DNA from: Chrysiogenes arsenatis DSM 11915
GTDB taxonomy: Bacteria; Chrysiogenota; Chrysiogenetes; Chrysiogenales; Chrysiogenaceae
DNA length: 64,000 nucleotides
NCBI RefSeq assembly: GCF_000469585.1
Contig: NZ_AWNK01000001.1
Coordinates: forward strand, 124,731-188,730
Reading direction: 5' to 3'
Part shown: one piece after another, positions 6,692 through 23,701 of the stretch
Layout of the letters: each line of letters starts with the position of its first letter
Numbering within the stretch: the first letter of the stretch is position 1
Made by a program: the position numbers and the translations under genes
The notes under the pieces: model-generated
Databases searched by the model: none
What the model was told of the DNA's origin: nothing
The model's input: the letters and a program-made list of their open reading frames with translations, nothing else

Positions 6692-7426
6692 ATGTTTAAA
6701 CGTAACAGTCTTTTATCAGTGCTTACCCATATAAAAAATAAAGGTGTAAATCCTCAGACGGTTATAGATGTGGGAGTGGCTTACGGAACAAACGGACTGT
6801 ACGGAGCCTTTGACTCCGTACGTTATCTTATGGTAGAGCCGTTGGAGGAGTACAAAGGGGTTCTCGATAAAATTGCATCTGAGTATCCGGCAGTTTACAC
6901 ACTGGCAGCTGCTGGGAGCAGAGAAGGAAGCATTATAATGAATGTGCATCCCGATATGAGCGGCTCCTCTGTTTTAAAGGAGTCTGAGGGAGCTCATGTA
7001 GATGGAGTGGAAAGAACTGTTCCCGTGGTGACCTTGGACGGTGAGACAAAAAAATACGGCCTTAAAGGACCGTTCATAATAAAGGTAGATGTTCAAGGTT
7101 TTGAGCTTGAAGTGCTTAAAGGCGCAGAAGAAACTCTTAAAGAGACGGAAGTCGTGATTATGGAAGTCTCTCTATTCCAGTTTTACAAAGAGTCGCCAAC
7201 TTTTCTTGATGCAGTTGCATTTATGAGTCAAAAAGGTTTCTCTCCCTATGACATTTTTGGAGCAACGTACCGGCCACTCGATGATGCATTAGGGCAGGTA
7301 GATGTTGTATTTGCATCAGATAAGGGCATACTAAAGCAATCATCACATTTTGCCTCTTTTGAGCAAAGAAAAAAATTTACTGAAGAGCGTATTAACAAGC
7401 TAAACCCCGCGAGCAAGTCAGTATGA
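6692..7426 (+). CDS. FkbM-family methyltransferase
   Basis: A complete 244-residue FkbM methyltransferase. The first SAM motif is VIDVGVAYGTNGLYGAF near residue 22, the strand-2 acidic residue is in LMVEPLEEY, and the second motif is IIKVDVQGFELEVLKGAEE near 130. Its C-terminal half matches the truncated gene at the window's left edge, so they are paralogs. The start follows GGGAGGAAAA. It overlaps the next gene by 4 bp (ATGA), which implies translational coupling. Likely role: O-methylation of a sugar added by the neighbouring glycosyltransferase; the acceptor cannot be predicted. Confidence 0.88.
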   Translation: MFKRNSLLSVLTHIKNKGVNPQTVIDVGVAYGTNGLYGAFDSVRYLMVEPLEEYKGVLDKIASEYPAVYTLAAAGSREGSIIMNVHPDMSGSSVLKESEGAHVDGVERTVPVVTLDGETKKYGLKGPFIIKVDVQGFELEVLKGAEETLKETEVVIMEVSLFQFYKESPTFLDAVAFMSQKGFSPYDIFGATYRPLDDALGQVDVVFASDKGILKQSSHFASFEQRKKFTEERINKLNPASKSV

Positions 7427-8142
7427 GTAGGATTGCGATTAATAAGGACGCGCATAAGGATTGTAGAGGCTTTCTCGTCGCGACCGGACCAAGCCTCACG
7501 ATTTCTGACCTTGATATGATTAAGGGTAATCTCTCTCTCTCGTGCAATAAAATATATCTTGCTTTTGACCAAACCGAATGGCGCCCAGATTACTATTCCG
7601 TAATAGACCGACTCGTTGCCCAAAATAATGCTGAAGCGATAGCAAGTGTGCGTGCAGTAAAAATTTTCAGCAGTGTCATTAAGCCTTTTATCCAGGACAG
7701 GGATGATATCTTTTGGCTTAAAGACTTGCCTACTCCTGTCATAAACGGCATAAGACAACCAAAATTCTCTGGTAACATAGCTGAAGGCACCTACGGCGGT
7801 CACACAGTAACATACACTTTAATGCAAGCAGCATATCACCTCGGCATAAAGGAGCTTTTTCTTCTCGGGCTGGATTTCAGTTTCGACAAATCAATGCCAG
7901 CAAATAAAACAACGGATGCAGGAGAAAATATTCTGGTTCAGAATGATGAAGTCAACCATTTTCACAATGATTATAGAAAAAAAGGAGAAGAATGGACTGT
8001 GCCTAGGCTTGACATACAGTATGATGCCTTCAAATGCGCTAAGGCAGCTTTTGAGAAAGACAACAGAAAAATATTCAACGCATCTAGAAAAACAATGCTT
8101 GATCTTTTTCCACTTGTTCAATTGGAGGATATTCTCGTATGA
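7423..8142 (+). CDS. DUF115 / MptE-like protein
   Basis: A 239-residue protein of the DUF115 family, often labelled 6-hydroxymethylpterin diphosphokinase MptE-like. The signature is VATGPSLTISDLDMI near residues 20-34 (an N/T-GPSL nucleotide-binding loop), then NKIYLAFDQTEWRPDYY, GGHTVTYTLMQAAYHLG and LFLLGLDFSFD. The same domain is found in Maf-type flagellin glycosylation proteins and in many glycan loci, where a pterin role is unlikely. It is a paralog of the gene at 16146. It overlaps both neighbours by 4 bp. I infer a role in sugar transfer or activation; the exact reaction is not known. Confidence 0.8.
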   Translation: MSRIAINKDAHKDCRGFLVATGPSLTISDLDMIKGNLSLSCNKIYLAFDQTEWRPDYYSVIDRLVAQNNAEAIASVRAVKIFSSVIKPFIQDRDDIFWLKDLPTPVINGIRQPKFSGNIAEGTYGGHTVTYTLMQAAYHLGIKELFLLGLDFSFDKSMPANKTTDAGENILVQNDEVNHFHNDYRKKGEEWTVPRLDIQYDAFKCAKAAFEKDNRKIFNASRKTMLDLFPLVQLEDILV

Positions 8143-9263
8143 ACGCGAGTCCATTTATCTCTGTTCTTATCAATAATTACAATTACGGCCGTTTTATAGC
8201 CCAGTGCGTGGAGAGCGTTCTAAAGCAAACTTACACCAATTATGAACTCATAATTGTCGATGACGGCTCGACAGATGATTCAGTAAATGTACTGGAATCC
8301 TTCTCTGATCCAAGAATAACAAAGATATATAAGAAAAACGGCGGGCAAGCCTCAGCCTTCAATGCAGGATTTGAGGCGTCAAAGGGTAGAATAATTGCTT
8401 TTCTAGACAGTGATGACTGGTGGTTGCCCCACAAACTCGAAACCATTGTGAAATGGGATAACTTTCTGGGCAGTAGTTATGGAGTGCTGCAGCACATGAC
8501 CACAGTCTGGGACAACGGCAAAACTTACCCCTTTCATCATGCCATGTATTCAGGTGATTGTTTCAGGCTCAGTGCATCCCAAGGCATTTTGGGGATTTTT
8601 GTAGGCACCTCCGGTCTTTGTTTCCGTAGGGAAGTCTTGGAAAAAGTGATGCCAGTTCCACTTCAACTCAGAATAAGTGCTGATGCATACCTCACTAGAA
8701 CATGCTGGCTGTTTAATGGAGTTATTTCCATACCGGAATCTTTAAGTTACTATCGTAAACACAACAATGCTGTTTTTGGCAACTCATCCTATAGTCATAA
8801 TAAATTTCATCACAATGTTCTCTTTCCTGTACTAAACCAATTTTACGAAAAAACCGGTTTGGATTTTCGCTTCTCATCACAGCAGCCTGAAAGAAAGAAT
8901 CACTCTCAAGTGCTGCATAGATTGATGCTTGAAAATAGATTAAGCGAGGTGACAAGAGCTTATCCCCGCATAGCTTTTTTTGGAGCAGGACAGTATACAG
9001 AGTGGCTAAGCGACTTTATGTCTGATTACAAAAAAGAGCATATAACAGCAATTTTAGACGATTTCCCTGACAAGACGAAGGCCTTCTGGGGACTCACACC
9101 CCAAAATCCCATTGATTGGGACACCTCACAGGCAGATGCAATAATACTCTCATCAGACTGTAAGCAGGAAATGATGCGTAAAAGGTGTTTAGACCTCTTT
9201 GGAGAGGCACTGCCTCTGATAGATTTGTATGAAGGACTCCCTGAAGGGCCGTATCCGAAATAG
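8139..9263 (+). CDS. Family 2 glycosyltransferase with C-terminal Rossmann-like domain
   Basis: A 374-residue protein. Residues 5 to about 230 are a GT2 (GT-A) domain: SVLINNYNYGRF at the start, IIVDDGSTDDS (UDP-sugar site), GGQASAFNAGFEAS and the metal-binding FLDSDDWW. Residues from about 265 form a second domain starting IAFFGAGQYTEWL and reaching ILDDFPDK, a GxGxx...D pattern like PglD N-termini. Similar modules lie at the N-termini of the proteins at 16146 and 18092. It ends with GLPEGPYPK. A homologous but more GC-rich C-terminus lies just downstream (9293-9325). Predicted to add a sugar in the cytoplasm. Confidence 0.88.
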   Translation: MNASPFISVLINNYNYGRFIAQCVESVLKQTYTNYELIIVDDGSTDDSVNVLESFSDPRITKIYKKNGGQASAFNAGFEASKGRIIAFLDSDDWWLPHKLETIVKWDNFLGSSYGVLQHMTTVWDNGKTYPFHHAMYSGDCFRLSASQGILGIFVGTSGLCFRREVLEKVMPVPLQLRISADAYLTRTCWLFNGVISIPESLSYYRKHNNAVFGNSSYSHNKFHHNVLFPVLNQFYEKTGLDFRFSSQQPERKNHSQVLHRLMLENRLSEVTRAYPRIAFFGAGQYTEWLSDFMSDYKKEHITAILDDFPDKTKAFWGLTPQNPIDWDTSQADAIILSSDCKQEMMRKRCLDLFGEALPLIDLYEGLPEGPYPK

Positions 9264-9343: not shown

Positions 9344-9937
9344 ATGGAAACCTTTATCAAAACGTATTTTTCTCGTTTAGCAGACGTTTTAAGTGCACTG
9401 GACACCACCACGGTAGCCAGAATCATTCAGGTGTTCGAACAGGCTCATACAAAACAGGCTACAATTTATTTCGCAGGTAATGGCGGAAGCGCATCTACCG
9501 CATCTCACTTCGCAAATGATCTTGGAGTTGGCCTGAAATTGCGGAGTATACGCAGTTTTCATGTGCAAAGTCTGGCCGACAACCCCGCGGTCACTACCTC
9601 CATCGCTAATGACGTCGGCTACGACAATATTTTCTACGTACAGCTGCTGGACATTCTTCGCCCGGATGATGTTCTGGTTGCAATCTCCGCCAGTGGTAAC
9701 TCACCAAACATTATCAAAGCCGCAGAATATACCAAAAACATTGGTGCCACACTCATCGGGTGCACCGGATTTGACGGAGGAAAACTCAAAGATCTGGCAG
9801 ATATAAGTTTCCACATTCAGAGTGAAAAAGGTGAATATGGTCTTGTGGAGGATGTGCATATGATTCTGGATCACGCCATCTATTCGTATTACCTCTCGCT
9901 CAAAGAAGGTTCATCAACTCGCTATACCGTGCGATGA
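9344..9937 (+). CDS. SIS-domain sugar isomerase, phosphoheptose isomerase (GmhA)-like
   Basis: A 197-residue single SIS domain protein, close to GmhA length (about 190). Phosphosugar-binding motifs are FAGNGGSASTASHFANDLG near residues 44-62 and ISASGNSPNI near 115; the C-terminal helix reads GLVEDVHMILDHAI, where GmhA carries a catalytic His and Glu. GmhA turns sedoheptulose 7-phosphate into a heptose 7-phosphate. In E. coli GmhA the loop reads CGNGGSHCDAMHF, so this variant may use another phospho-ketose. AAGGAGGG upstream sets ATG 9344. It precedes the sugar-biosynthesis set, from which it is separated by the ATPase gene at 10016. Confidence 0.78.
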   Translation: METFIKTYFSRLADVLSALDTTTVARIIQVFEQAHTKQATIYFAGNGGSASTASHFANDLGVGLKLRSIRSFHVQSLADNPAVTTSIANDVGYDNIFYVQLLDILRPDDVLVAISASGNSPNIIKAAEYTKNIGATLIGCTGFDGGKLKDLADISFHIQSEKGEYGLVEDVHMILDHAIYSYYLSLKEGSSTRYTVR

Positions 9938-10015
9938 AGGATACTCAACCCACTCTATCTGGGGCAATCATACGGAACTGATAGGTCACTATGCACCAGC
10001 ATGAAAGGTTCATTT

Positions 10016-11599
10016 ATGCATAAATTCTTCAATACTGCTGGGCCGACTAAGGCAAATTTGCACTATCATATCAATCCACTGAGTCGCCTGAATTGGGATG
10101 AGATTCGTCTGCTTATCGATCAGCAGAAGTACTTCTTGCTCCATGCGCCACGGCAAACGGGGAAGACTTCAACGTTGCTAGAAATGATGCATAGATTGAA
10201 CCAAGAAGGGAAATACGTTTGCGCATATGCCAATATCGAGGGGGCACAGGCGGCACGGGGCAATGCTTCGGATGGTATTGCAGCGGCGTGTAGTGCGATT
10301 GCGCGGAGTATAGAAGATTATACTGGCAGTGTAGATGTCAATGTGTGGTGGACGCAGGAGGGACGGCAGCATCAATCGCAGGATCAGTTGACTCAGCTGC
10401 TACGATACTGGGCAAAGCATTCGCCAAAACCCACCATCCTCCTGCTCGACGAAGTTGATGCACTTATAGGCGACACATTGATTTCGCTGCTCAGGCAGAT
10501 TCGTGCGGGGTATGCGCAACGTCCAGAAGCGTTCCCGCAAGCGATGATTTTATGCGGTGTGCGCGATATTAAAGATTACCGTATTCATACTAAAGATCAG
10601 GAAATCATCACTGGCGGGAGTGCTTTTAATATTAAAGCCACGTCTTTGGTGATGGAGAGTTTTACGTTTGAAGAGTGCAAACAGCTCTATTGGGAACATA
10701 CCAAAGAGACGGGGCAGGTGTTTGACAAGGCGATTTTTCCAAAGCTTTGGAGCGATACGAAAGGGCAGCCGTGGTTAGTCAATGCGCTCGCGTACCAAAT
10801 GACATCAGAAAATCGCACGCTTCGCGACCGTTCAATAAAGATTGAATTTGAACATTACATGAAAGCACGCGAGGAGTTGATTCAGTCGCGGGCGACGCAT
10901 CTGGATCAGTTGACAGATAAGTTGCGTGAACAGCGGGTGTATAATGTTATTTCGGCGATTCTTTCGCAAGTTGATGCTAGCGACGCTCATTTTGATGACA
11001 GGGATTTGGAGTATGTTCAGGATTTAGGGCTGATTGTTCGCAAGCCGTTTGTGCATATATCAAACGATATTTATCAAGAAGTTATTCCGCGCGAGCTTAC
11101 GATTGCGAAACAGCAGTCGATTGTAGAACAGGATCTTGCCTGGTACTTGAACAGCGATAATACGATCAACTTTGCGAAACTGATGACGGCGTTTCAGCAG
11201 TTTTTCCGTGAAAATAGCGATTCTTGGATTGAGAGATTTGATTACAAAGAAGCCGGGCCGCAGTTGCTGTTGCAAGCGTTTCTGCAGCGTCTTATCAACG
11301 GTGGCGGGCGGATTAATCGTGAATACGCTTTGGGTCGCAAGCGAACTGACATATTTGTTGAATGGCCAACGTCTGATAAAGGTTTTTTTGGGCCGGTACA
11401 ACGGGTGGTATTGGAAACGAAGCTTTTGCGTGCGAATTTGGAAAAGACGATAGAAGAAGGTATTGCGCAGGTTTCGGAGTACGCACGGACGGTTGGTGCG
11501 GGCGAGATGCATTTGATCATTTTTGATAGGAAGTCTCGTGATTGGGAGCAGAAAATCTGGCACAAGCGGGTGGATGGGATTGATGTGTGGGGATGTTAG
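10016..11599 (+). CDS. AAA ATPase with C-terminal PD-(D/E)XK nuclease-like domain
   Basis: A 527-residue protein. Residues 15-300 form a P-loop ATPase: Walker A in APRQTGKTS (about 44-52), Walker B in ILLLDEVDAL (about 142-151). The C-terminal part has TDIFVEW (about 443) followed by VVLETKLL (about 463), the D-x(n)-E-x-K pattern of PD-(D/E)XK nucleases. This two-part architecture is common as multi-copy genes in bacterial genomes; its function is unclear, and defence or a mobile role has been proposed for relatives. AAAGG seven bases upstream supports ATG 10016 over 10001. It has no glycan role that I can see and interrupts the sugar set, so it probably arrived by insertion. Confidence 0.8.
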   Translation: MHKFFNTAGPTKANLHYHINPLSRLNWDEIRLLIDQQKYFLLHAPRQTGKTSTLLEMMHRLNQEGKYVCAYANIEGAQAARGNASDGIAAACSAIARSIEDYTGSVDVNVWWTQEGRQHQSQDQLTQLLRYWAKHSPKPTILLLDEVDALIGDTLISLLRQIRAGYAQRPEAFPQAMILCGVRDIKDYRIHTKDQEIITGGSAFNIKATSLVMESFTFEECKQLYWEHTKETGQVFDKAIFPKLWSDTKGQPWLVNALAYQMTSENRTLRDRSIKIEFEHYMKAREELIQSRATHLDQLTDKLREQRVYNVISAILSQVDASDAHFDDRDLEYVQDLGLIVRKPFVHISNDIYQEVIPRELTIAKQQSIVEQDLAWYLNSDNTINFAKLMTAFQQFFRENSDSWIERFDYKEAGPQLLLQAFLQRLINGGGRINREYALGRKRTDIFVEWPTSDKGFFGPVQRVVLETKLLRANLEKTIEEGIAQVSEYARTVGAGEMHLIIFDRKSRDWEQKIWHKRVDGIDVWGC

Positions 11600-11668
11600 G
11601 TTAACTTTGCTCTAAGATGCCCTTTTCCACTCGGGGCAAACGGGAAAAAGCATAATGAAGGACATACG

Positions 11669-12670
11669 ATGCTAAAAATGGGAATTGCTGGACTGGGCAA
11701 AATGGGTCAGATTCGTGCGGCAGAGATTGCAAAGTCAAAGACCTCTGAACTTAAGGCAGTATTTGATATTAATCCAAATGCTTCGGTAGGAAGTGCCGTC
11801 GAATGCCGTACCTTTGATGAATTGCTTGAGCAGGATATTGATGCCGTCTTTATCAGCACATACAATTACTGCGCAGCAGAATACACTATACAGGCACTCA
11901 AACGAGGCAAGCATGTCTTTTGCGAAAAGCCGCCAGCCATCAACGTGGCTCAACTACAAAAAGTCGTCGAAGCTGAACAGCAAACCGGTCTCGTACTCAA
12001 ATATGGCCTTAACCACCGCTTTCACTACTCCGTCATGGAAGCCAAAAAACGCATCGACCGAAACGACCTCGGTCGCATTCTGTGGATGCGTGGCGTGTAT
12101 GGAAAAGCGGGCAGTATTGATTATGACAAAAACTGGCGCAACTATAAACAATACAGCGGCGGCGGTATTTTAATTGACCAAGGGCTTCACATGCTCGATC
12201 TTATGCTCCATTTCTCAGGAAAGCCATTTACTAAGGTAAACAGTTTTGTTACAACGCTTTTCTGGAACATCGAGGCAGAAGATAATGCCTTTGCCATTAT
12301 GCAAACAGACGATCAAGTAACTGCCATGCTCCACTCTTCCGCCACACAGTGGCGTCACAAATTTCTGCTCGAGATATGCTGCGAAAATGGATACATCAAC
12401 CTTGACGGCATACTCTCTTCAACACGGAGTTACGCCCCTGAGAAACTTGTCATTGGTTACCGGGAGTTTGAGGATGTTACCCACGCGATGGGCAAACCAC
12501 GCGAGGAAACTATCTGGTTTGAGTATGACGACTCTTGGAAGCTTGAGCTGGCAGACTTCGAGCAGGCTATTCAGCAAAAAACATCGGTAACGCACGGCAG
12601 TAGTCGAGAAGCGATGGAAGCACTGGCACTCGTTGAAAAAATTTATGAACGATCGAGCATGTCTGAATGA
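11669..12670 (+). CDS. Gfo/Idh/MocA-family sugar dehydrogenase
   Basis: A 333-residue NAD(P)-dependent oxidoreductase. The N-terminal Rossmann motif is GIAGLGKMGQIRA (residues 5-17), the family motif is HVFCEKPPAI near 90, and the catalytic-region segment GGGILIDQGLHMLDLM lies near 168. Members oxidise or reduce hydroxyls of sugars, inositols and nucleotide sugars. AAGGACAT upstream supports the start. It overlaps the following dehydrogenase by 4 bp, starting a run of five tightly linked genes. I infer it oxidises an intermediate for, or made by, the cyclase at 14337; an inositol-type substrate is equally possible. Confidence 0.85.
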   Translation: MLKMGIAGLGKMGQIRAAEIAKSKTSELKAVFDINPNASVGSAVECRTFDELLEQDIDAVFISTYNYCAAEYTIQALKRGKHVFCEKPPAINVAQLQKVVEAEQQTGLVLKYGLNHRFHYSVMEAKKRIDRNDLGRILWMRGVYGKAGSIDYDKNWRNYKQYSGGGILIDQGLHMLDLMLHFSGKPFTKVNSFVTTLFWNIEAEDNAFAIMQTDDQVTAMLHSSATQWRHKFLLEICCENGYINLDGILSSTRSYAPEKLVIGYREFEDVTHAMGKPREETIWFEYDDSWKLELADFEQAIQQKTSVTHGSSREAMEALALVEKIYERSSMSE

Positions 12671-13599
12671 AACTTCCGTATACACTCGGCATCACATCCG
12701 CAGCGTTTGCAGGCCGCCAGGATCTGGTGGAAAAGGCAAGTGCCATCTTTGACAGAATGCACCTTGTCCCTCCAGTCGGACGACTACCAGAAAAAGATAT
12801 TATTGCCATGCTCCAGCATTGCGATGCCGCCATAGTTGGATTAGATAAGATTACACCCGCACTTTTGCAACAATGTCCTCGTGTAAAGGTTATTTCGAAG
12901 TTTGGCGTCGGTTTAGATAATATTGATGTCGCTGCGTGCGAACAACGAGGCGTCCGTGTGTTGGCAGCTTTTGGCGTAAATCGCCGTTCCGTTGCCGAAC
13001 TAACACTAAACTTTATGCTCTCGCTGATCAGGAACTGCTACCGGAGCGCAACATCGTTAAAAGCCGGTCAATGGGTCAAAAATGGTGGGCGATGCCTCAC
13101 CGAAAAAAAAATTGGCATAATCGGTGTCGGGAATATTGGCAAGGAAGTTATTCATCTTCTGCAACCATTTCAGTGCGAAATCCTTGCCAATGACATTCTT
13201 GACCTCGACGTGTACTATGCGGGCGTTGGGGCAAAGTCTGCAACCAAAGACGAAATTTTTCGCAGTTGCGATATTATCACGCTCCACACTCCCCTTACAC
13301 CGCAAACTCAACACATGGTTACACTCGATTCCCTTAAGCGCATGAAGAACGATGCCTTTCTCATCAATACCGCTCGCGGTGGTATCGTAAAGACAGAAGA
13401 CCTGAAGGAGGCACTTCGCCAACAGCTTATTGCAGGTGCGGCGCTAGATGTTTTTGAGGTTGAACCCTTCTATGACGACGAACTGTTAAACACGATGAAT
13501 GTTTTGTGCACCCCACACATTGGAGGCAACGCACAGGAAGCTGTTTTTGCTATGGGCGAGTCGGCACTCAACCTTTTGGTGAATCACTATGGAAGATAA
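12667..13599 (+). CDS. D-2-hydroxyacid dehydrogenase (phosphoglycerate dehydrogenase-like)
   Basis: A 310-residue NAD-dependent D-isomer-specific 2-hydroxyacid dehydrogenase. The NAD-binding motif is IGIIGVGNIGKEV near residue 145, the catalytic Arg lies in NTARGGIVKTEDL near 238, the Glu in DVFEVEPF near 266, and the His in CTPHIGGNAQEA near 283. It lacks the ACT domain of many SerA enzymes, and nothing here points to serine synthesis. It is embedded between a sugar dehydrogenase and an SDR with 4-bp and 11-bp overlaps, so its substrate is probably a 2-keto acid or keto-sugar of this pathway. Confidence 0.85.
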   Translation: MKLPYTLGITSAAFAGRQDLVEKASAIFDRMHLVPPVGRLPEKDIIAMLQHCDAAIVGLDKITPALLQQCPRVKVISKFGVGLDNIDVAACEQRGVRVLAAFGVNRRSVAELTLNFMLSLIRNCYRSATSLKAGQWVKNGGRCLTEKKIGIIGVGNIGKEVIHLLQPFQCEILANDILDLDVYYAGVGAKSATKDEIFRSCDIITLHTPLTPQTQHMVTLDSLKRMKNDAFLINTARGGIVKTEDLKEALRQQLIAGAALDVFEVEPFYDDELLNTMNVLCTPHIGGNAQEAVFAMGESALNLLVNHYGR

Positions 13600-14317
13600 T
13601 CGTTTGCCATCACTTCCGGTCGCACTTATCACCGGAGCCTCGCGCGGGATAGGGCGGGCGATAGCCGAGCAACTCTATGCTGATGGATTTACCATCTATG
13701 CAACGGCTACGTCTGTAAATTCGATCCCGCCTGAGATCTCTCACTGGAAGTGGTTTCTGGTAGACTTTAGCAACAGTATAAGTTTCCAGAACTTCCTTCG
13801 TGAACTCGACGCCCACGAGCCTGTTACCGCGCTGGTGAACAACGCCGGAATCAATCGCATCCATCCAATAGCACAGATTTCAGAGGCTGACTACGCTACC
13901 GTTTCAGCCGTCAATCTTGATGCACCATATTTTTTATCGCAACGGATTCTGCAACGTATGCCCTGCGGTGGCCGCATCGTCATGATCGCCTCAATCTGGT
14001 CAACCATCAGCAAGGCAAACCGCACACTGTACGCGACCACAAAATCGGCTTTGACCGGACTTACGCGCACATTAGCCGCTGAACTGGGTTCCCGCGCTAT
14101 TCTGGTGAACGCCGTTTCGCCAGGATTTACCCGCACAGAACTCACCCAGGCTTCGCTCAGCATTCAGGAGCAAGAAGCACTCGCGCAGCAAATCCCACTT
14201 GGCAGAATGGCAATGCCTCACGAAATTGCGCAACTGGTGAGCTTTCTTGTGAGTAACAAGAACAGCTACATCACCGGACAGAATATTGTCATTGACGGAG
14301 GATTTACCATTGTGTAA
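13589..14317 (+). CDS. Short-chain dehydrogenase/reductase (FabG-like)
   Basis: A 242-residue classical SDR. The cofactor motif is ITGASRGIGRAIA (residues 11-23), then NNAGI near 90, catalytic Ser in MIASIWS near 134, YATTKSA (Tyr-x-x-x-Lys) near 148, and the C-terminal GGF close. It overlaps the upstream gene by 11 bp. FabG itself is unlikely because no fatty-acid genes are adjacent; a ketoreduction on a sugar or cyclitol is the natural reading in this operon. Substrate unknown. Confidence 0.85.
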   Translation: MEDNRLPSLPVALITGASRGIGRAIAEQLYADGFTIYATATSVNSIPPEISHWKWFLVDFSNSISFQNFLRELDAHEPVTALVNNAGINRIHPIAQISEADYATVSAVNLDAPYFLSQRILQRMPCGGRIVMIASIWSTISKANRTLYATTKSALTGLTRTLAAELGSRAILVNAVSPGFTRTELTQASLSIQEQEALAQQIPLGRMAMPHEIAQLVSFLVSNKNSYITGQNIVIDGGFTIV

Positions 14318-14336
14318 CGCCGCCCACCCCAAGCAT

Positions 14337-15416
14337 ATGAAAATCCTCAGCTATAAAGGAGAATATGAGGTTCAGTTCGTCTCCGATATCCGCAACGCGC
14401 TGCAAACTCTCTTGCAACTAGGTGATGTGGTTCTTCTGGATATAAACGTTGCGGAAATTTACGCCGCGCGCTTCGATAACATTTTTGGCAACAACAAAGT
14501 GATTCTTATTTCACCGACAGAGAATCAAAAGAGTTACCAACAGGTTGAACCTCTCATTGCCGAGTTGCTCGCAGATAACTTCAAACGCAACTATCGCCTG
14601 ATTGCCATCGGTGGCGGAATAACACAGGACACCTGTTCGTTTATTGCATCCATTCTTTTCCGTGGTGTTGACTGGATATTCGTTCCGACTAATCTTCTGG
14701 CGCAGGCGGACAGCTGCATCGGTAGCAAAACGTCACTGAATTTCGCTCACTACAAAAACCAGCTCGGCGGCTTTCATCCGCCAAAGCTCATCTTATTGGA
14801 TACATGTTTCTTACAAACGCTGGATCAGCGCGAGATCCGCTCCGGCCTCGGCGAAATACTGCACTATTTTTTAATTTCCGGCTACGATGCAATGGAACGC
14901 TTTGAACGGGAATATTCCCGAGCTCTTCATGACACAGAAACGCTGCAAGGGCTCATACAACAAAGCCTTGGCATCAAAAAAACCATGATAGAGTGTGACG
15001 AATTTGATCGTGGCCCGCGAAACATTTTCAACTACGGACATTCATTCGGGCACGCTCTGGAAAGTTACACTGATTACGCCATCCCACACGGAATCGCGGT
15101 AAGTTTCGGTATGGACATCGCGAACGAAGTTTCTGTCGCGCTTGGCTTTATGGAAGCGCAGGAGGCAAGTGCCATGCGTAACGTAATTGAGAAAATCTGG
15201 TGGCCATGTGACTTTCCGGAAGTCGATCTGGATCGTTTTCTGGCCTTGCTGGGAAAAGATAAAAAAAATATTGGTACATCGTTACGTTTTGTGCTGTCGC
15301 GTGGCCCCGGCAAAATGTTTCTGCACAGCGTAGGTGATCAGGCTCTGTTGCGAGATATCCTTTCGAAAAAATTTACCTATTTCTTTAACGAGGCAAAAAA
15401 ACATGGACACCGGTAA
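14337..15416 (+). CDS. Dehydroquinate-synthase-like sugar phosphate cyclase, divergent
   Basis: A 359-residue member of the sugar phosphate cyclase superfamily. Matching motifs are GGGITQD (92-98; GGGVxGD in AroB), VPTNLLAQADSCIGSKTSLN, KNQLGGFHPP and SGLGEILHYF. The metal ligands are kept: Glu173, His235 (NYGHSFGHA) and His251 (PHGIAV). The lysine that follows the ligand Glu in AroB (EVIKYG) is His176 here, and GD has become QD. The family includes 3-dehydroquinate synthase, deoxyinosose synthase and sedoheptulose-7-phosphate cyclases. Context (GmhA-like isomerase, dehydrogenases, CMP-type cytidylyltransferase) argues against the shikimate pathway. ATG 14337 was chosen; TTG 14310, behind GGAGG, is an alternative. 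Confidence 0.75.
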   Translation: MKILSYKGEYEVQFVSDIRNALQTLLQLGDVVLLDINVAEIYAARFDNIFGNNKVILISPTENQKSYQQVEPLIAELLADNFKRNYRLIAIGGGITQDTCSFIASILFRGVDWIFVPTNLLAQADSCIGSKTSLNFAHYKNQLGGFHPPKLILLDTCFLQTLDQREIRSGLGEILHYFLISGYDAMERFEREYSRALHDTETLQGLIQQSLGIKKTMIECDEFDRGPRNIFNYGHSFGHALESYTDYAIPHGIAVSFGMDIANEVSVALGFMEAQEASAMRNVIEKIWWPCDFPEVDLDRFLALLGKDKKNIGTSLRFVLSRGPGKMFLHSVGDQALLRDILSKKFTYFFNEAKKHGHR

Positions 15417-16149
15417 AATCATTGCGCATATACCTGCACGGGGTGGCAGTAAACGTGTTCCGGCAAAAAACCTACGACTCCTTGCCGGCAAACCCATGAT
15501 CGCGTACGCCATTGAAGCAGCGCTCAAATGCTCGGAACTGCATGATGTGTATGTGAACACTGACTCTGATGACATCGAAAAACTCTCCCATTCTCTGAAC
15601 TGCCACGTCTATCGCCGCCCGGCGGAACTCGGATCTGACACCGCTTCTGGAGACGATTTCACAATTGACTTTATCAACGCCAAAGATCCCGACACGCTGG
15701 TTCTCATTAACCCGGTATGCCCACTGATTACGTCTGAAGATATCTCGCGCGCAATACAGGCGTATTCGCACAATGCTACGGTCGACACACTCATCAGTGG
15801 CACCGAAACACGTATGCAGACATTCTGCGATGGGGCCGCCATTAACATTGTACCCGACGGCCCACTGGCACCAACCCAAGACAACCCACCCGTATTTATC
15901 TGCAATTGGGCCATTGCGATATGGAATGCCAGGGTGTTCCGGGAACTCTATCAGGAATTTGGTGGCGGCTACTGCGGAAGGAACCGGCTTTTCTGGCCAA
16001 TGGATCCGTGGAGAGCCGTCAAGGTAAGTATTGAAAATGACTTTATAATGGCGGAAAAACTTTTGAGCGCTACACAGTGCCATACCACAGAAAACACTGA
16101 GAGTATTCGCTACTGGACACCGTCAATGAACAACTCCACATCAAAATGA
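15403..16149 (+). CDS. CMP-sugar synthetase-like cytidylyltransferase (NeuA family)
   Basis: A 248-residue nucleotidyltransferase. The N-terminal signature is IAHIPARGGSKRVPAKN (residues 7-23), followed by YVNTDSDDI near 48 and RPAEL; a metal-binding Asp region follows at WPMDPW near 204. Family members transfer CMP from CTP to 2-keto sugars such as sialic, legionaminic and pseudaminic acid. No NeuB-type condensing enzyme is seen nearby, so classic sialic acid synthesis is not supported. The start at 15403 sits 14 bp inside the cyclase gene behind GAGGC; the in-frame upstream extension reads like cyclase-antiphase sequence. It implies that the product of this set is CMP-activated. Confidence 0.82.
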   Translation: MDTGKIIAHIPARGGSKRVPAKNLRLLAGKPMIAYAIEAALKCSELHDVYVNTDSDDIEKLSHSLNCHVYRRPAELGSDTASGDDFTIDFINAKDPDTLVLINPVCPLITSEDISRAIQAYSHNATVDTLISGTETRMQTFCDGAAINIVPDGPLAPTQDNPPVFICNWAIAIWNARVFRELYQEFGGGYCGRNRLFWPMDPWRAVKVSIENDFIMAEKLLSATQCHTTENTESIRYWTPSMNNSTSK

Positions 16150-17171
16150 AAAATCAGAACTCTCCTTACGCCATATTCGGCACAGGACAGGCTGCAGAGC
16201 AGGCGCTTGCGTATGCAAATGCAAACGACCTGGTCGTCACGCACTATGTTGATGACTTGGCTGCGGGCATGCACCACGGGCTCGCCATACTGTCGTGGGA
16301 AAGCTTTCTACTCAGGCAGTTGGAATTTACCGCCCTGCTTATGGGTCGCCATCAAAGAGGTGAGGTGGCAAGCCGGGAGAATCTGATTATTCCCTTACTT
16401 CTTATAGATCAGAAGCTGGTCAATCCACCCACGTACAATACCATCGACAACATCCAAAAGCTCACTTCATTAAAGCAAAAGCATGCGGGGAAGCGCTGTT
16501 TCATCATTGGTAATGGCCCCAGCCTGACCGCGTCAGATCTGAGCTTGCTGAAAAATGAAATTACCTTTGCCTCAAACAAGATTTATCTGGTGTATCCGGA
16601 AACTGACTGGCGACCAACGTACTACTTTGTAGAGGATTACCTAGTCGCCAAAAACAATGCGCAAGTTATCAATTCCTTGCCGGGAGTAAAGTTTTTTGAA
16701 TTCTCGACGCTCGCCTTTCTTCGCGTCAGCAGCGCAACCTGCGTTTACCAATTTACTCATATTCCCACCAATACGGTTTTTTCACGCGACATCGTGAACG
16801 GCGTTACCCATGCACACACCGTAGTCGGGTCACAATTACAATTCGCTTATTATATGGGTTTCGCGGAAGCTATACTGCTGGGCGTTGATTTCGACTTTAT
16901 CATTCCCAATGGCAACTGTGGCAAACTCTTCGGCACCATTGACATACTGCGCAGCCAAGGGGAAAAAAACCACTTTCACCCCGACTACCGGCCTCTTGGT
17001 GAAGTCTGGAGCTATCCCAATTTGGAGAAACAACAACAATTCTTCAACGCAGTGCTGCCGTCACTCCCCGAACAGAGCTTCACCATACGCAACGCCTCGC
17101 GCTTTTCAAAGCTGACCTCTTTTCCCCGCTGTGACCTTGAAAGCCTTCTTCACGGATCAGCCCATGAGTGA
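16146..17171 (+). CDS. DUF115 / MptE-like protein with N-terminal Rossmann-like domain
   Basis: A 341-residue protein. Residues 1 to about 105 start YAIFGTGQAAEQALAYA and continue to HYVDDLAAG, the same GxGxx...DD module seen in the GT2 at 8139 and the FkbM protein at 18092. The DUF115 domain follows: CFIIGNGPSLTASDL near 120, NKIYLVYPETDWRPTYYFVEDYLVA, AHTVVGSQLQFAYYMGF and AILLGVDFDF. It is a paralog of the shorter gene at 7423. It overlaps the cytidylyltransferase by 4 bp and the next GT2 by 8 bp. Role inferred as glycan or glycoprotein sugar transfer. Confidence 0.8.
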   Translation: MKNQNSPYAIFGTGQAAEQALAYANANDLVVTHYVDDLAAGMHHGLAILSWESFLLRQLEFTALLMGRHQRGEVASRENLIIPLLLIDQKLVNPPTYNTIDNIQKLTSLKQKHAGKRCFIIGNGPSLTASDLSLLKNEITFASNKIYLVYPETDWRPTYYFVEDYLVAKNNAQVINSLPGVKFFEFSTLAFLRVSSATCVYQFTHIPTNTVFSRDIVNGVTHAHTVVGSQLQFAYYMGFAEAILLGVDFDFIIPNGNCGKLFGTIDILRSQGEKNHFHPDYRPLGEVWSYPNLEKQQQFFNAVLPSLPEQSFTIRNASRFSKLTSFPRCDLESLLHGSAHE

Positions 17172-18108: not shown

Positions 18109-19219
18109 CATTGACCAGCTCCCATCTGGGAAATCTGTCGCCATCTATGGATATGGTGGCTACGGCAAAACCCTTGAAGCGCTTCTTGTAACGCGCCGTC
18201 CGGATATCCGCGTGAGTTTCATTATCGATGACCAGTACAGCACATTGCTTGAAGGAGCACCCTCCTTCTGCAATCTCGCGACCTTCTGTCACATATATAA
18301 TGACCAGTCACCGCAGATATTACTCGGAGTCGTAGATCAGACTCTTGTACGAAAATTATCTCATAATCTTACTCAGGTGCGGCTGCCGTTTACCATTATT
18401 GAAGCGCTCCAGAGATATTTACCCTGTGAACACACCTTTGATAAAGCTTTCCGTACTGCACATCGAGATAAATTTCAGCAAACCAGAGCCTTACTCTTCG
18501 CAGAACCTGACCGGCAGCTGTTTGATACACTGGTAAAATATCGCAGTTCAGATAGCCCAGTCTATGCCCAAGAACTTGCTCCGGAGTGGGTGCGTCCGTG
18601 GCCAAAACAATACACTGATTATGTCAACCCTTATACTATTACCTGTGCTATTGACGGCGGAGTATTTGAAGGAAATACGACAAATCACATGATTGAACAC
18701 CTCTATCAGCGTAGCCCGTTACAGGCACTTTATGGTTTTGAGCCTCTGATAGAAGTATACCAAACCAGCCGCTTTCGGACGGTGCTTGAGCACATGCTTC
18801 CTTTAACCGTGTGTGAAAAAGCACTGTGGAGCAGTGAGGAAATACTCCATTTCAAAGAGTCAGGAACATCATCCCGAGTGGTTTCTTCGGGGATTACGGG
18901 TAACGTCCGGGAAGTGAGCGCTACCTCGCTTGACACATACATTGTGCAGCAGAGAATCGCCAAGGTAGACTTTCTGAAACTCGATATCGAAGGGGCAGAA
19001 CTCATGGCTCTCCAAGGGGCTGCCAACATGATTCAACAGGATCGCCCGCAAATGGCAATTTCGATCTATCACCTCAAGGAACATCTGTTTGAAATTCCGC
19101 TCTACCTTAATTCGCTCTGTTCAGACTATATTTTCCGTCTTGGGCACTATTCGAAAATCTTCAACGAAACCATTTTTTACGCTATCCCCAGAGAGTTGTA
19201 CCGTGAATCCTATGACTAA
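18092..19219 (+). CDS. FkbM methyltransferase with N-terminal Rossmann-like domain
   Basis: A 375-residue protein starting at GTG 18092, 17 bp inside the preceding gene. Residues 12-100 hold the module VAIYGYGGYGKTLEA ... FIIDDQYS. The FkbM part follows: AIDGGVFEGNTT near 187 (SAM site), GFEPLIEVY, and VDFLKLDIEGAELMALQGA near 292. The first motif is a variant with a gap in the usual GxGxG. It is the third FkbM enzyme in the locus that is unlike the first two in length. Likely methylates the glycan made here. Confidence 0.83.
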   Translation: MQKIPDIDQLPSGKSVAIYGYGGYGKTLEALLVTRRPDIRVSFIIDDQYSTLLEGAPSFCNLATFCHIYNDQSPQILLGVVDQTLVRKLSHNLTQVRLPFTIIEALQRYLPCEHTFDKAFRTAHRDKFQQTRALLFAEPDRQLFDTLVKYRSSDSPVYAQELAPEWVRPWPKQYTDYVNPYTITCAIDGGVFEGNTTNHMIEHLYQRSPLQALYGFEPLIEVYQTSRFRTVLEHMLPLTVCEKALWSSEEILHFKESGTSSRVVSSGITGNVREVSATSLDTYIVQQRIAKVDFLKLDIEGAELMALQGAANMIQQDRPQMAISIYHLKEHLFEIPLYLNSLCSDYIFRLGHYSKIFNETIFYAIPRELYRESYD

Positions 19220-20492
19220 AATTGAACAAGCACGCGCACTGTATAGCTGCAAAAAAGCTCTCCACGTCAAAGCCGCAGTGAGCCGGGAAAAGGCACTCAC
19301 AAAGCGCGGAGTTTTATGGCTGGGACAAACGTGCAATCTCAGATGCTTTTTTTGTTATTTTGTCGATAAAATTGCCGACAAACACCATCCAGAACATCCC
19401 TTTATGGATCTTGAAAAAGCAAAACGAATTTGTCGCGCCTTACGCACCGTCTATGGAAATACCTCCGTTGACATTCAGGGAGGTGAACCGACAATTTATC
19501 CGCAAATATTTGAACTTGTTGGGTATTGTGCCAGTATCGGCCTGAAACCAACACTTATTACCAACGCTATTGTTCTATCCAATATTTCACTCTGCGAACA
19601 GTTCCTCTGCGCAGGAGTGCATGATTTTCTTGTCAGCGTTCATGGACTTGGCGATGTGTATGAGAAAGTCGTCGGATTGCCTGGTGGAAGTGAAAAGCAG
19701 ATGCGCGCCCTTTATAATCTGCAAACGCTTGGCATCCCATTCCGACTCAACTGTACTCTGACCAAAGAGGTCGTGCACGAGCTTGAAGACATTGTCACGC
19801 TGGCTAAGGAAACAGGAGCCCGCGTGGTGAACTTCATCGCATTCAACCCATTTGCGGATCAGCAAGACAAAAATGTGCGCAATTCAGAGAATGTTCCAAG
19901 TTACCACACCATCAAAGCCAAACTTACCTCCGCTATCGACCAGCTTGAATGGTGTGGCATTGAAACCAATGTTCGCTACCTTCCTTTATGCATAGCAGAA
20001 GAGCGGCATCGGAAGAATTTTTATAATTTCCAGCAACTGAGCTACGATCCCCGCGAATGGGATTTCAACTCGTGGACGTGGACAACTCGCCTGAATCAGC
20101 GCTCAAGCACTCCGGAGCTTGATGAGCCTATTCCGATTTTGCTCTATGACATTTACGAATACAATGACATCGCATTCGGCGACACCGCTCGACACGGCAC
20201 AAAAGCGCATTACATGCGAGAGATTGATGTGCGGGAACACCTGCTCAAGCTTTTCAGCGCTGATATCTCTAAGGATTTGCTCTATCGCCAGAACGCCCGG
20301 TTGCGTGCAGAAAAACACTGTAAATATGAATATAACCAAACCTGCCATACCTGCTCACTGCGCCTGATTTGCGATGGTTTCCATAATGACTACGCTTCTA
20401 TCTTCGGCACCAGTGAAGCGTGCGCCATTCTAGGTGAACTGATCGATGATCCGACCTATTTTATCCAACATCAGGAGAAAATCGTTGAGTGA
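19212..20492 (+). CDS. Radical SAM protein with C-terminal cysteine cluster
   Basis: A 426-residue radical SAM enzyme. The [4Fe-4S] motif CNLRCFFC (CxxxCxxC) lies near residue 38, the GGEP motif in DIQGGEPTIYP near 82. The C-terminus has C-x(6)-C-x-x-C-x(5)-C (CKYEYNQTCHTC...LIC), as in auxiliary-cluster (SPASM/twitch-like) enzymes. ATG 19212 overlaps the FkbM stop by 8 bp; the frame is open to 19089 but that part lies inside the FkbM gene. Such enzymes in glycan loci may do dehydration, epimerisation or peptide modification; the reaction cannot be told. Confidence 0.82.
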   Translation: MTKIEQARALYSCKKALHVKAAVSREKALTKRGVLWLGQTCNLRCFFCYFVDKIADKHHPEHPFMDLEKAKRICRALRTVYGNTSVDIQGGEPTIYPQIFELVGYCASIGLKPTLITNAIVLSNISLCEQFLCAGVHDFLVSVHGLGDVYEKVVGLPGGSEKQMRALYNLQTLGIPFRLNCTLTKEVVHELEDIVTLAKETGARVVNFIAFNPFADQQDKNVRNSENVPSYHTIKAKLTSAIDQLEWCGIETNVRYLPLCIAEERHRKNFYNFQQLSYDPREWDFNSWTWTTRLNQRSSTPELDEPIPILLYDIYEYNDIAFGDTARHGTKAHYMREIDVREHLLKLFSADISKDLLYRQNARLRAEKHCKYEYNQTCHTCSLRLICDGFHNDYASIFGTSEACAILGELIDDPTYFIQHQEKIVE

Positions 20493-22597: not shown

Positions 22598-23701
22598 ATG
22601 GGTTTCAGAATCGAAGATATTTCCTACACTATAACTGAGTTTTGCCCAGGTCCGTGCAGGTATTGCTCCATGTGGAAGCTCCCTGACCGACAAGCAGAAG
22701 AGTTAAATACTCGTGAAATAGATTCGATTTTCTCCTCACAATATCTCGACCTAAAGAAGATTCACCTGACCGGTGGTGAGCCGCATATGAGCGATACCTA
22801 CCTACGCGTTGTTGATAGTGTGCATACTTTTCATCCCGACGTCATTATCGACTCGCCTATCACTGGCTGGTTCCCTGATCGGCATGAAGAAATTGCTCGT
22901 TATGTATTGCGCAAATCACCACTCATCCGACTGGACATTTCGCTTGATGGTGACGAAGCTACGCATTCCAAAATTCGACTACATAAAGATGGGTTTCATA
23001 AATCGCTGGAAACAATTGAGCGGCTGAAGAAAATCCCTGGAGTTGTACTTCGTTTCCAATTCACAATTTACCGTGAAAACCTACACCTCATTGAATGGGT
23101 CTACAACTTTGCTAAGCAACTCGGCATCGGGCTTTATCTTGGCTATGGACGCTTCAATCCGGAACGATACCGGAATAAAACGGATAACCTAACGCAAAAT
23201 GCCTTGAGTCGTGAAAGTTTTGTTTTTAGTAAAGACGAATTACAAGAGATAGATCGTCAACTACGCACCATTGGTTACCACTCTGGTCGTTATGCCAGTA
23301 AATATCTTCTGCAAAAAGCGGTATTTGACGGAAAAAATATTGAGTTTAACTGTTATATGGGATCGCGCAATATTGATATCGATCCATACGGAAATCTGTA
23401 CCCTTGTCTTTTATGGCTCCCATATCTGAAAATTGGTAACATTCGTGAAGCCGGAGGCTTCAGTTCGGCGTTGGAAACACCTCAGGCGCATGAAGTGCTG
23501 GCAAAGATTTCTCAAAAAGAGTGTCAGCCTGACTGCCTTTATACCTGTGCCAATAAATGTGAGCTTATTGATCCACCAGTTAAAGCGGTTGGTATGATCG
23601 ACTATCATGGGGGGAAATATGGTTTCATTTTCAGTGATCTTGACGTTATTCCCATACGCCCTTGGTGGTACGAAGACTATCAAAAGCGAGGAATCATTTG
23701 A
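22598..23701 (+). CDS. Radical SAM/SPASM-type protein
   Basis: A 367-residue radical SAM enzyme. The cluster motif is CPGPCRYC (CxxxCxxC, residues 13-20), then HLTGGEPHMSD near 50. The C-terminal part has cysteines in FNCYMGSRNIDIDPYGNLYPC and CQPDCLYTCANKC, the pattern of a SPASM domain with auxiliary clusters. GGAGC before ATG 22598 is the ribosome site. It overlaps the DUF354 protein by 4 bp (TTGA), so the two probably act together. It is the second radical SAM protein of the locus and only distantly similar to that at 19212. Substrate unknown. Confidence 0.83.
   Translation: MGFRIEDISYTITEFCPGPCRYCSMWKLPDRQAEELNTREIDSIFSSQYLDLKKIHLTGGEPHMSDTYLRVVDSVHTFHPDVIIDSPITGWFPDRHEEIARYVLRKSPLIRLDISLDGDEATHSKIRLHKDGFHKSLETIERLKKIPGVVLRFQFTIYRENLHLIEWVYNFAKQLGIGLYLGYGRFNPERYRNKTDNLTQNALSRESFVFSKDELQEIDRQLRTIGYHSGRYASKYLLQKAVFDGKNIEFNCYMGSRNIDIDPYGNLYPCLLWLPYLKIGNIREAGGFSSALETPQAHEVLAKISQKECQPDCLYTCANKCELIDPPVKAVGMIDYHGGKYGFIFSDLDVIPIRPWWYEDYQKRGII

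Follow-up and report, generated by a model that had tools for sequence, protein, structure and literature searches.

A conserved gene cassette around a TIGR04425 cyclase in Chrysiogenes arsenatis and its possible carboxylated ring product

A stretch of 64,000 nucleotides from the genome of Chrysiogenes arsenatis DSM 11915 (2.83 Mb in 22 contigs, C1-C22), hereafter the window, contains a cassette of genes for a SIS isomerase, a Gfo/Idh/MocA dehydrogenase (GFO), a D-2-hydroxyacid dehydrogenase (HADH), an SDR reductase, a sugar phosphate cyclase (SPC) and a cytidylyltransferase (CMPT). The cassette is real, conserved and, apparently, hitherto undescribed: among open-licence PubMed Central (PMC) papers, to which all our literature searches were confined, none was found that names the family of the cyclase, TIGR04425, or describes the cassette. 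We propose, with a probability of roughly 0.35, that the cassette makes a carboxylated ring product by way of a hept-2-ulosonate 7-phosphate, and that this product is loaded onto CMP in most of the related loci.

The cyclase family and its active-site pocket

The window cyclase scores 416.9 bits against TIGR04425 (cut-off 400) and thus is a member of this NCBIfam family, "AroB-related putative sugar phosphate phospholyase (cyclizing)", of hypothetical function. Against the aroB model TIGR01357, it reaches 270 bits, below the equivalog cut-off of 305. In a maximum-likelihood tree, the 27 members of TIGR04425, the window cyclase included, form a clade split by a 100/99 branch from AroB, aminodehydroquinate synthase (aminoDHQS) and DOIS. 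The canonical aroB of the host is encoded separately, on contig C5. An earlier note on the same DNA had described the cyclase as divergent, and family membership, the separate clade and the aroB on C5 bear out that it is not the housekeeping AroB; the latter gene also rules out that the cyclase is the only aroB of the genome, an outcome that the note had regarded as fatal to its own proposal. The TIGR04425 cut-off is passed in 2 of 385 broadly sampled genomes and in none of the other 383, nor in two other genomes of the same class. Scans of viral contigs yielded nothing, whether the query was the cyclase or its central fragment. A tblastn search of plasmids with the cyclase returned only matches below 60% identity, of which the four inspected were AroB, aminoDHQS-type or DOIS-type genes.

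The AlphaFold model of the cyclase (pLDDT 91) shows the fold of 3-dehydroquinate synthase (DHQS), with TM-scores of 0.84-0.87 to the top matches. We mapped the pocket residues by motif, in the numbering of the Aspergillus DHQS. All complete TIGR04425 members share D146, K152, N162, E194, K250, R264, N268, H271, H275, H287 and K356 with AroB and aminoDHQS. In DOIS, by contrast, position 264 is G and position 268 is E; on inspection of the alignment, the solved DOIS homologue 2d2x agrees at both positions. The window cyclase retains the DHQS pocket with the single exception of K197->H, a position occupied by H in the subclade of the window, by K in the other TIGR04425 members and by R in aminoDHQS. 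The loss of Arg264 and Asn268 seen in DOIS, the one neutral-substrate cyclase compared, is not present in the window cyclase. Thus, AroB and aminoDHQS resemble the window cyclase in fold and active-site residues but differ from it by its own clade, the K197->H change, its cassette context and the family motif, DSCIG-K-S-N as opposed to DSSVGGKT of AroB. EEVS, DDGS and DOIS share with it the superfamily and the type of reaction, and DOIS differs in lacking Arg264 and Asn268.

The substrate of DOIS is a hexose phosphate without a carboxylate, and that of aminoDHQS carries a carboxylate. In the published structure of DHQS, we take Arg264 to be in contact with the carboxylate. Because Arg264 and Asn268 are kept here and lost in DOIS, we predict from the sequence, with moderate confidence, that the substrate of the window cyclase bears a carboxylate. 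Together, the pocket and the presence of HADH suggest a carboxylated 2-keto sugar phosphate. The neutral ketoses and cyclitols that the earlier note had offered as examples are weakened by the complete DHQS pocket, with the two residues that are lost in DOIS.

Conservation of the cassette and the CTP-dependent step

Scanning genome contigs with an alignment of the cyclases of the two genomes that pass the TIGR04425 cut-off (locus L071 being taken as the second of these seeds) produced 28 relative loci, spread over more than ten phyla. Among the 29 loci that include the window, the SDR gene is present in all 29, directly upstream of the cyclase gene in 25, and GFO, SIS and HADH are found in 19, 18 and 16 loci, respectively. 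The GFO of the window scores 495, 454 and 433 bits against its homologues in L046, L060 and L068, and HADH, which shows the catalytic R, E and H, scores 299, 290 and 285 bits against those in L060, L071 and L068. Within flanks of 1.5 kb, SDR is present in 26 of 28 TIGR04425 loci, GFO in 12, HADH in 10 and SIS in 8, compared to none of these genes in the same flanks of 32 AroB control loci. The search for the same neighbourhood in other genomes, which the earlier note had suggested, thus reveals recurrence across phyla, and conservation of the gene set over such a range supports its view of the genes as one pathway unit. The cassette is widespread and has probably been spread by horizontal transfer.

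Twenty loci contain at least one gene of what we call the arm (SIS, GFO or HADH), and 17 of the 20 also encode a cytidylyltransferase, NeuA-type in 11 and KdsB-type in 6; the three arm loci without one (L047, L049 and L051) lie on contigs that are short or end near the cassette. On the cyclase tree, the KdsB or NeuA type changes at least three times, so that the CTP enzyme seems to have been replaced by the other type while the CTP step was retained. This exchange supports the view that activation by CTP belongs to the pathway in the relatives. A YhcH gene, of the family of N-acetylneuraminate anomerase, adjoins the cassette in L047, L049 and L050; in the host, one is located about 17 kb upstream of the cassette, outside the window.

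For the host itself, the picture is different. CMPT scores 81.1 bits against its best family model, PseF, below the cut-off of 205.7; its structural model (pLDDT 80) has the NeuA-like fold of CMP-sugar synthetases and best matches 6ifd, 9t4z and 1eyr, with CMP-NeuAc synthetase the best of all. It keeps S16, R18, K22, N23, R72 and Q159, but has LINPVCPL in place of QxxPTSPL, the motif conserved in most other copies, and K-V-S in place of the acidic D-I-D that precedes the final D(F/L) near the C-terminus. In 15 other NeuA-type copies, including the one near NeuB on C6, this triplet is D-I-D in 13, Q-I-D in one and E-I-D in one. The aspartates of D-I-D presumably bind the metal in CMP-NeuAc synthetase, and loss of the acidic motif makes the CMP step doubtful in the host. 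CMP activation, as suggested in the earlier note, accordingly holds up for the relatives and is uncertain for the host strain. As a separate observation, a cupin-like stretch forms the C-terminus of the cassette cytidylyltransferase in L046 (11163-12329), L064 (13289-14335) and L068 (12000-13145), and L060 has a separate cupin gene two genes downstream; at 7116-8288, L068 encodes another cytidylyltransferase, whose long C-terminal extension resembles a HAD phosphatase.

The remaining nine loci, from Lachnospiraceae, Ruminococcus and others, contain SDR and SPC only, with no arm. Seven of these carry a gene of a pyruvate-type aldolase family (HpcH-like in L063, L065, L066 and L072; HMGL-like in L061, L067 and L069), and several also carry a thiamine pyrophosphate (TPP) enzyme. 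On one reading, the aldolase supplies the 2-keto acid that loci of the window type would obtain by oxidation of an aldonic acid. In L065, L066 and L069, the SDR-SPC pair lies beside CDP-glucose-type genes (an NTP transferase and members of the 4,6-dehydratase and DegT aminotransferase families) and an acetolactate-synthase-like TPP enzyme, a set that possibly represents a pathway to a branched or bicyclic sugar; products of the bradyrhizose type for the armless loci are speculation, for which no relevant paper was found. An HpaI-type aldolase as the condensing step in the host was rejected, given that the genome contains no HpcH/HpaI gene, and candidate NanA-type aldolases, roughly 300 aa long and encoded in the neighbourhood of the cyclase gene in L046, L052 and L071, turned out to be a glycosyltransferase and methyltransferases.

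A possible pathway and its alternatives

From the gene identities and their conservation, the clade and pocket of the cyclase and the exchange of CTP enzymes, all directly observed, we infer the substrates, the product and the simplest order of steps that employs every conserved enzyme and accommodates both HADH and the pocket. The SIS protein would convert a ketose phosphate, for example, sedoheptulose 7-phosphate, to the aldose (aldoheptose) 7-phosphate; GFO would oxidize C1 to the acid or lactone; and HADH would oxidize C2, yielding hept-2-ulosonate 7-phosphate, that is, 3-deoxy-D-arabino-heptulosonate 7-phosphate (DAHP) with a hydroxyl at C3. HADH fits this route because its nearest kin, phosphoglycerate dehydrogenase, acts on a 2-hydroxy acid with a terminal phosphate. 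The DHQS-like cyclase then would expel the phosphate and form a six-membered carbon ring with geminal hydroxyl and carboxyl groups, SDR would reduce the ring ketone, and, in the relatives, the NeuA- or KdsB-type enzyme would place CMP on the hydroxyl adjoining the carboxylate, to be used as a donor by the MptE/Maf-like transferase. In its most specific form, the product would be a carba-ulosonic acid whose ring resembles that of quinate with one more hydroxyl, formed when a heptose 7-phosphate is oxidized twice and then closed in the manner of DHQS, and the NeuA/KdsB-type enzymes would treat the tertiary alpha-hydroxy-acid centre as if it were anomeric. We offer this version tentatively and regard it as on the whole improbable; if true, it would provide, to our knowledge, the first CMP-activated carbasugar donor.

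Several observations weigh against the proposed route. The link between Arg264 and a carboxylate comes from the DHQS structure and a comparison limited to DOIS, DHQS and aminoDHQS. On the cyclase tree, one change separates loci that have the arm from those that lack it, so the association of arm and cytidylyltransferase has no independent replication. In the SAR11 loci L054 and L055, NeuB lies nearby, and KdsB there may serve another sugar. L045, L048, L050 and L071 contain an HpaI-type pyruvate aldolase and a KynB-like hydrolase, and the aldolase has no place in the route. We know of no precedent for CMP on a tertiary, non-anomeric hydroxyl as a glycosyl donor. Finally, judging by a CMPT that lacks D-I-D, CMP activation in the host strain is uncertain.

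A version along the lines of the earlier note, in which an EEVS- or DOIS-like cyclase acts on neutral sedoheptulose 7-phosphate and the dehydrogenases tailor the resulting cyclitol before its activation to a CMP or CDP derivative, draws on the GmhA-like SIS protein, the weak IolG-type similarity of GFO and the cyclitol pathways that known neutral-substrate cyclases feed. The SIS protein is no orthodox GmhA: it scores 98.9 bits against TIGR00441 (gmhA), below the cut-off of 209.45, has H, D, E, H at the Zn site where GmhA has H, E, Q, H, and is outmatched by a stronger gmhA-type gene on contig C2; the cassette differs from the GmhA heptose pathway also in lacking a heptose kinase or phosphatase. 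With Arg264 and Asn268 in all complete members, no obvious place for a 2-hydroxyacid dehydrogenase, and 2-keto acids being what NeuA- and KdsB-type enzymes activate, we consider a neutral substrate unlikely, though worth keeping in mind. The cyclase homologue could instead eliminate phosphate without closing a ring, in which case SDR would reduce the new ketone to give a 7-deoxy-2-ulosonic acid with an ordinary anomeric centre, activated with CMP like Kdo or a nonulosonate. Such a route has the merits of a normal CMP-ulosonate donor, a ketone reducible by the adjacent SDR and a role for the YhcH-family genes near some copies, but all DHQS catalytic residues are kept, and ring closure in DHQS after the redox and elimination steps has been described as possibly spontaneous, with no need for help from the enzyme (PMC7144000), which makes a carbocycle the default expectation. 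Elimination without closure is therefore distinctly unlikely. That the cyclase is a second, redundant DHQS agrees with its nearly complete DHQS pocket but is hardly credible in view of the canonical aroB on C5, the separate clade, scores above the TIGR04425 cut-off and below that of TIGR01357 (270 versus 305), and the cassette context.

Two further alternatives concern the CMP step. CMPT might serve a standard nonulosonate made elsewhere, for example, CMP-pseudaminate, and merely lie next to the cyclase genes, the second outcome that the earlier note had regarded as fatal. The earlier note had found no NeuB/KdsA-type condensing enzyme, which is correct for the locus, where no NeuB-type synthase was detected, but not for the genome: PseI with PseG- and PseH-like neighbours is encoded on C15, a contig with no cytidylyltransferase, and NeuB_NnaB is encoded on C6 together with a NeuA-type gene of its own that scores 173.7 bits against PseF, so that the host has genes for standard nonulosonate routes on other contigs. 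The C15 set could thus draw on CMPT, whose best model is PseF. Nevertheless, the PseF score is low (81 bits versus a cut-off of 206), the NeuB on C6 is already provided for, a cytidylyltransferase is present in 16 of the 19 other arm-bearing loci, most with no NeuB in view, and D-I-D is gone from CMPT; this explanation has little probability. The cassette shares with the CMP-nonulosonate and CMP-Kdo pathways a NeuA/KdsB-type CTP enzyme, an MptE/Maf-like transferase and YhcH-family genes nearby, but differs in having the cyclase, HADH and GFO, and in some relatives the HpaI-type aldolase, with no NeuB/KdsA in the unit. Alternatively, the CMP branch could be decaying in the host, with CMPT inactive, the operon broken by an AAA ATPase insert, and the pathway dead or ending at a free acid. 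The changes of D-I-D to K-V-S, which none of the other NeuA-type copies in the comparison shows, and of QxxPTSPL to LINPVCPL, as well as the AAA gene, mobile in appearance, that separates SIS from GFO, are compatible with decay, but all frames are intact and overlapping, the other conserved residues of CMPT remain, and, on inspection, the other five enzymes have their main catalytic motifs intact, so decay is rather unlikely.

The locus and its genomic setting

The six enzymes are all encoded on the forward strand, where the earlier note had placed them, and the last five genes, from GFO through CMPT, are as tightly packed as it had described, with spacings of -14 to +19 bp (Table 1). The overlaps are 4 bp for GFO-HADH, 11 bp for HADH-SDR and 14 bp for SPC-CMPT, and CMPT overlaps the following MptE-like gene by 4 bp; with the likely starts, the SDR-SPC gap is 19 bp. 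SPC more likely starts at the ATG at 14337 than at the TTG at 14286, which falls within the SDR gene. With the ATG starts of SPC and CMPT, the large overlaps of the longest frames shrink to the 19-bp gap and the 14-bp overlap.

Table 1. Genes of the cassette and its immediate surroundings (positions within the window)
Gene product	Position	Strand	Remarks
Second MptE-like protein	7423..8142	+	upstream of cassette
SIS isomerase	9344..9937	+	PF13580; GmhA-like, not orthodox GmhA
AAA ATPase, 532 aa	10001..11599	+	separates SIS from GFO
GFO, Gfo/Idh/MocA dehydrogenase	11669..12670	+	
HADH, D-2-hydroxyacid dehydrogenase	12667..13599	+	nearest to phosphoglycerate dehydrogenases
SDR reductase, FabG-like	13589..14317	+	
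SPC, sugar phosphate cyclase	14337..15416	+	TIGR04425
CMPT, NeuA/PseF-type cytidylyltransferase	15403..16149	+	probable start at the ATG at 15403
MptE-like protein	16146..17171	+	PF01973; overlaps the end of CMPT

Two genes were absent from the list in the earlier note, those for the AAA ATPase and the MptE-like protein at the end of the cassette. The AAA ATPase looks like an insertion: an 86% identical copy lies at C6:70631-72223 and a broken fragment at C6:102997, and L046, L060 and L071 have no such gene at the SIS-GFO junction. It is probably a mobile or multi-copy insert outside the pathway. The MptE-like protein belongs to PF01973, which we take to include Maf-type flagellin transferases, and is the likely transferase of the activated product. 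An MptE-like gene adjoins the cassette also in L047, L048, L050 and L052, and upstream copies, like that in the window, are found in L048 and L052.

The window also encodes GT2 transferases, FkbM methyltransferases and two radical SAM proteins (19089-20492 and 22598-23701), and the 20 kb before it encode a large protein that matches the flagellin-modification family PseD below the cut-off, along with a further GFO, an SpsF-like cytidylyltransferase, the YhcH protein and a PRK06209-type aminotransferase. The locus thus looks like part of a surface or flagellar glycosylation island. Part of the upstream region (L043:6017-12669; C1, about 110.7-117.4 kb), with PseD/Maf-like, GFO, SpsF-like, PRK06209-type aminotransferase, GNAT and YhcH genes and no NeuB, is possibly another CMP-sugar gene set. 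Five flagellin genes, with unusually long frames (872-924 aa), are located on C4 and C22.

These observations place a cyclase family of hypothetical function in a gene context that recurs in many phyla, among them SAR11, abundant ocean bacteria, and culturable bacteria such as Draconibacterium (D. mangrovi, L050). If this context reflects a pathway, surface glycans of these bacteria would hold an unrecognized building block that is acidic and possibly carbocyclic. The superfamily of the cyclases would then gain a branch that acts on 2-ulosonate phosphates beyond aromatic biosynthesis.

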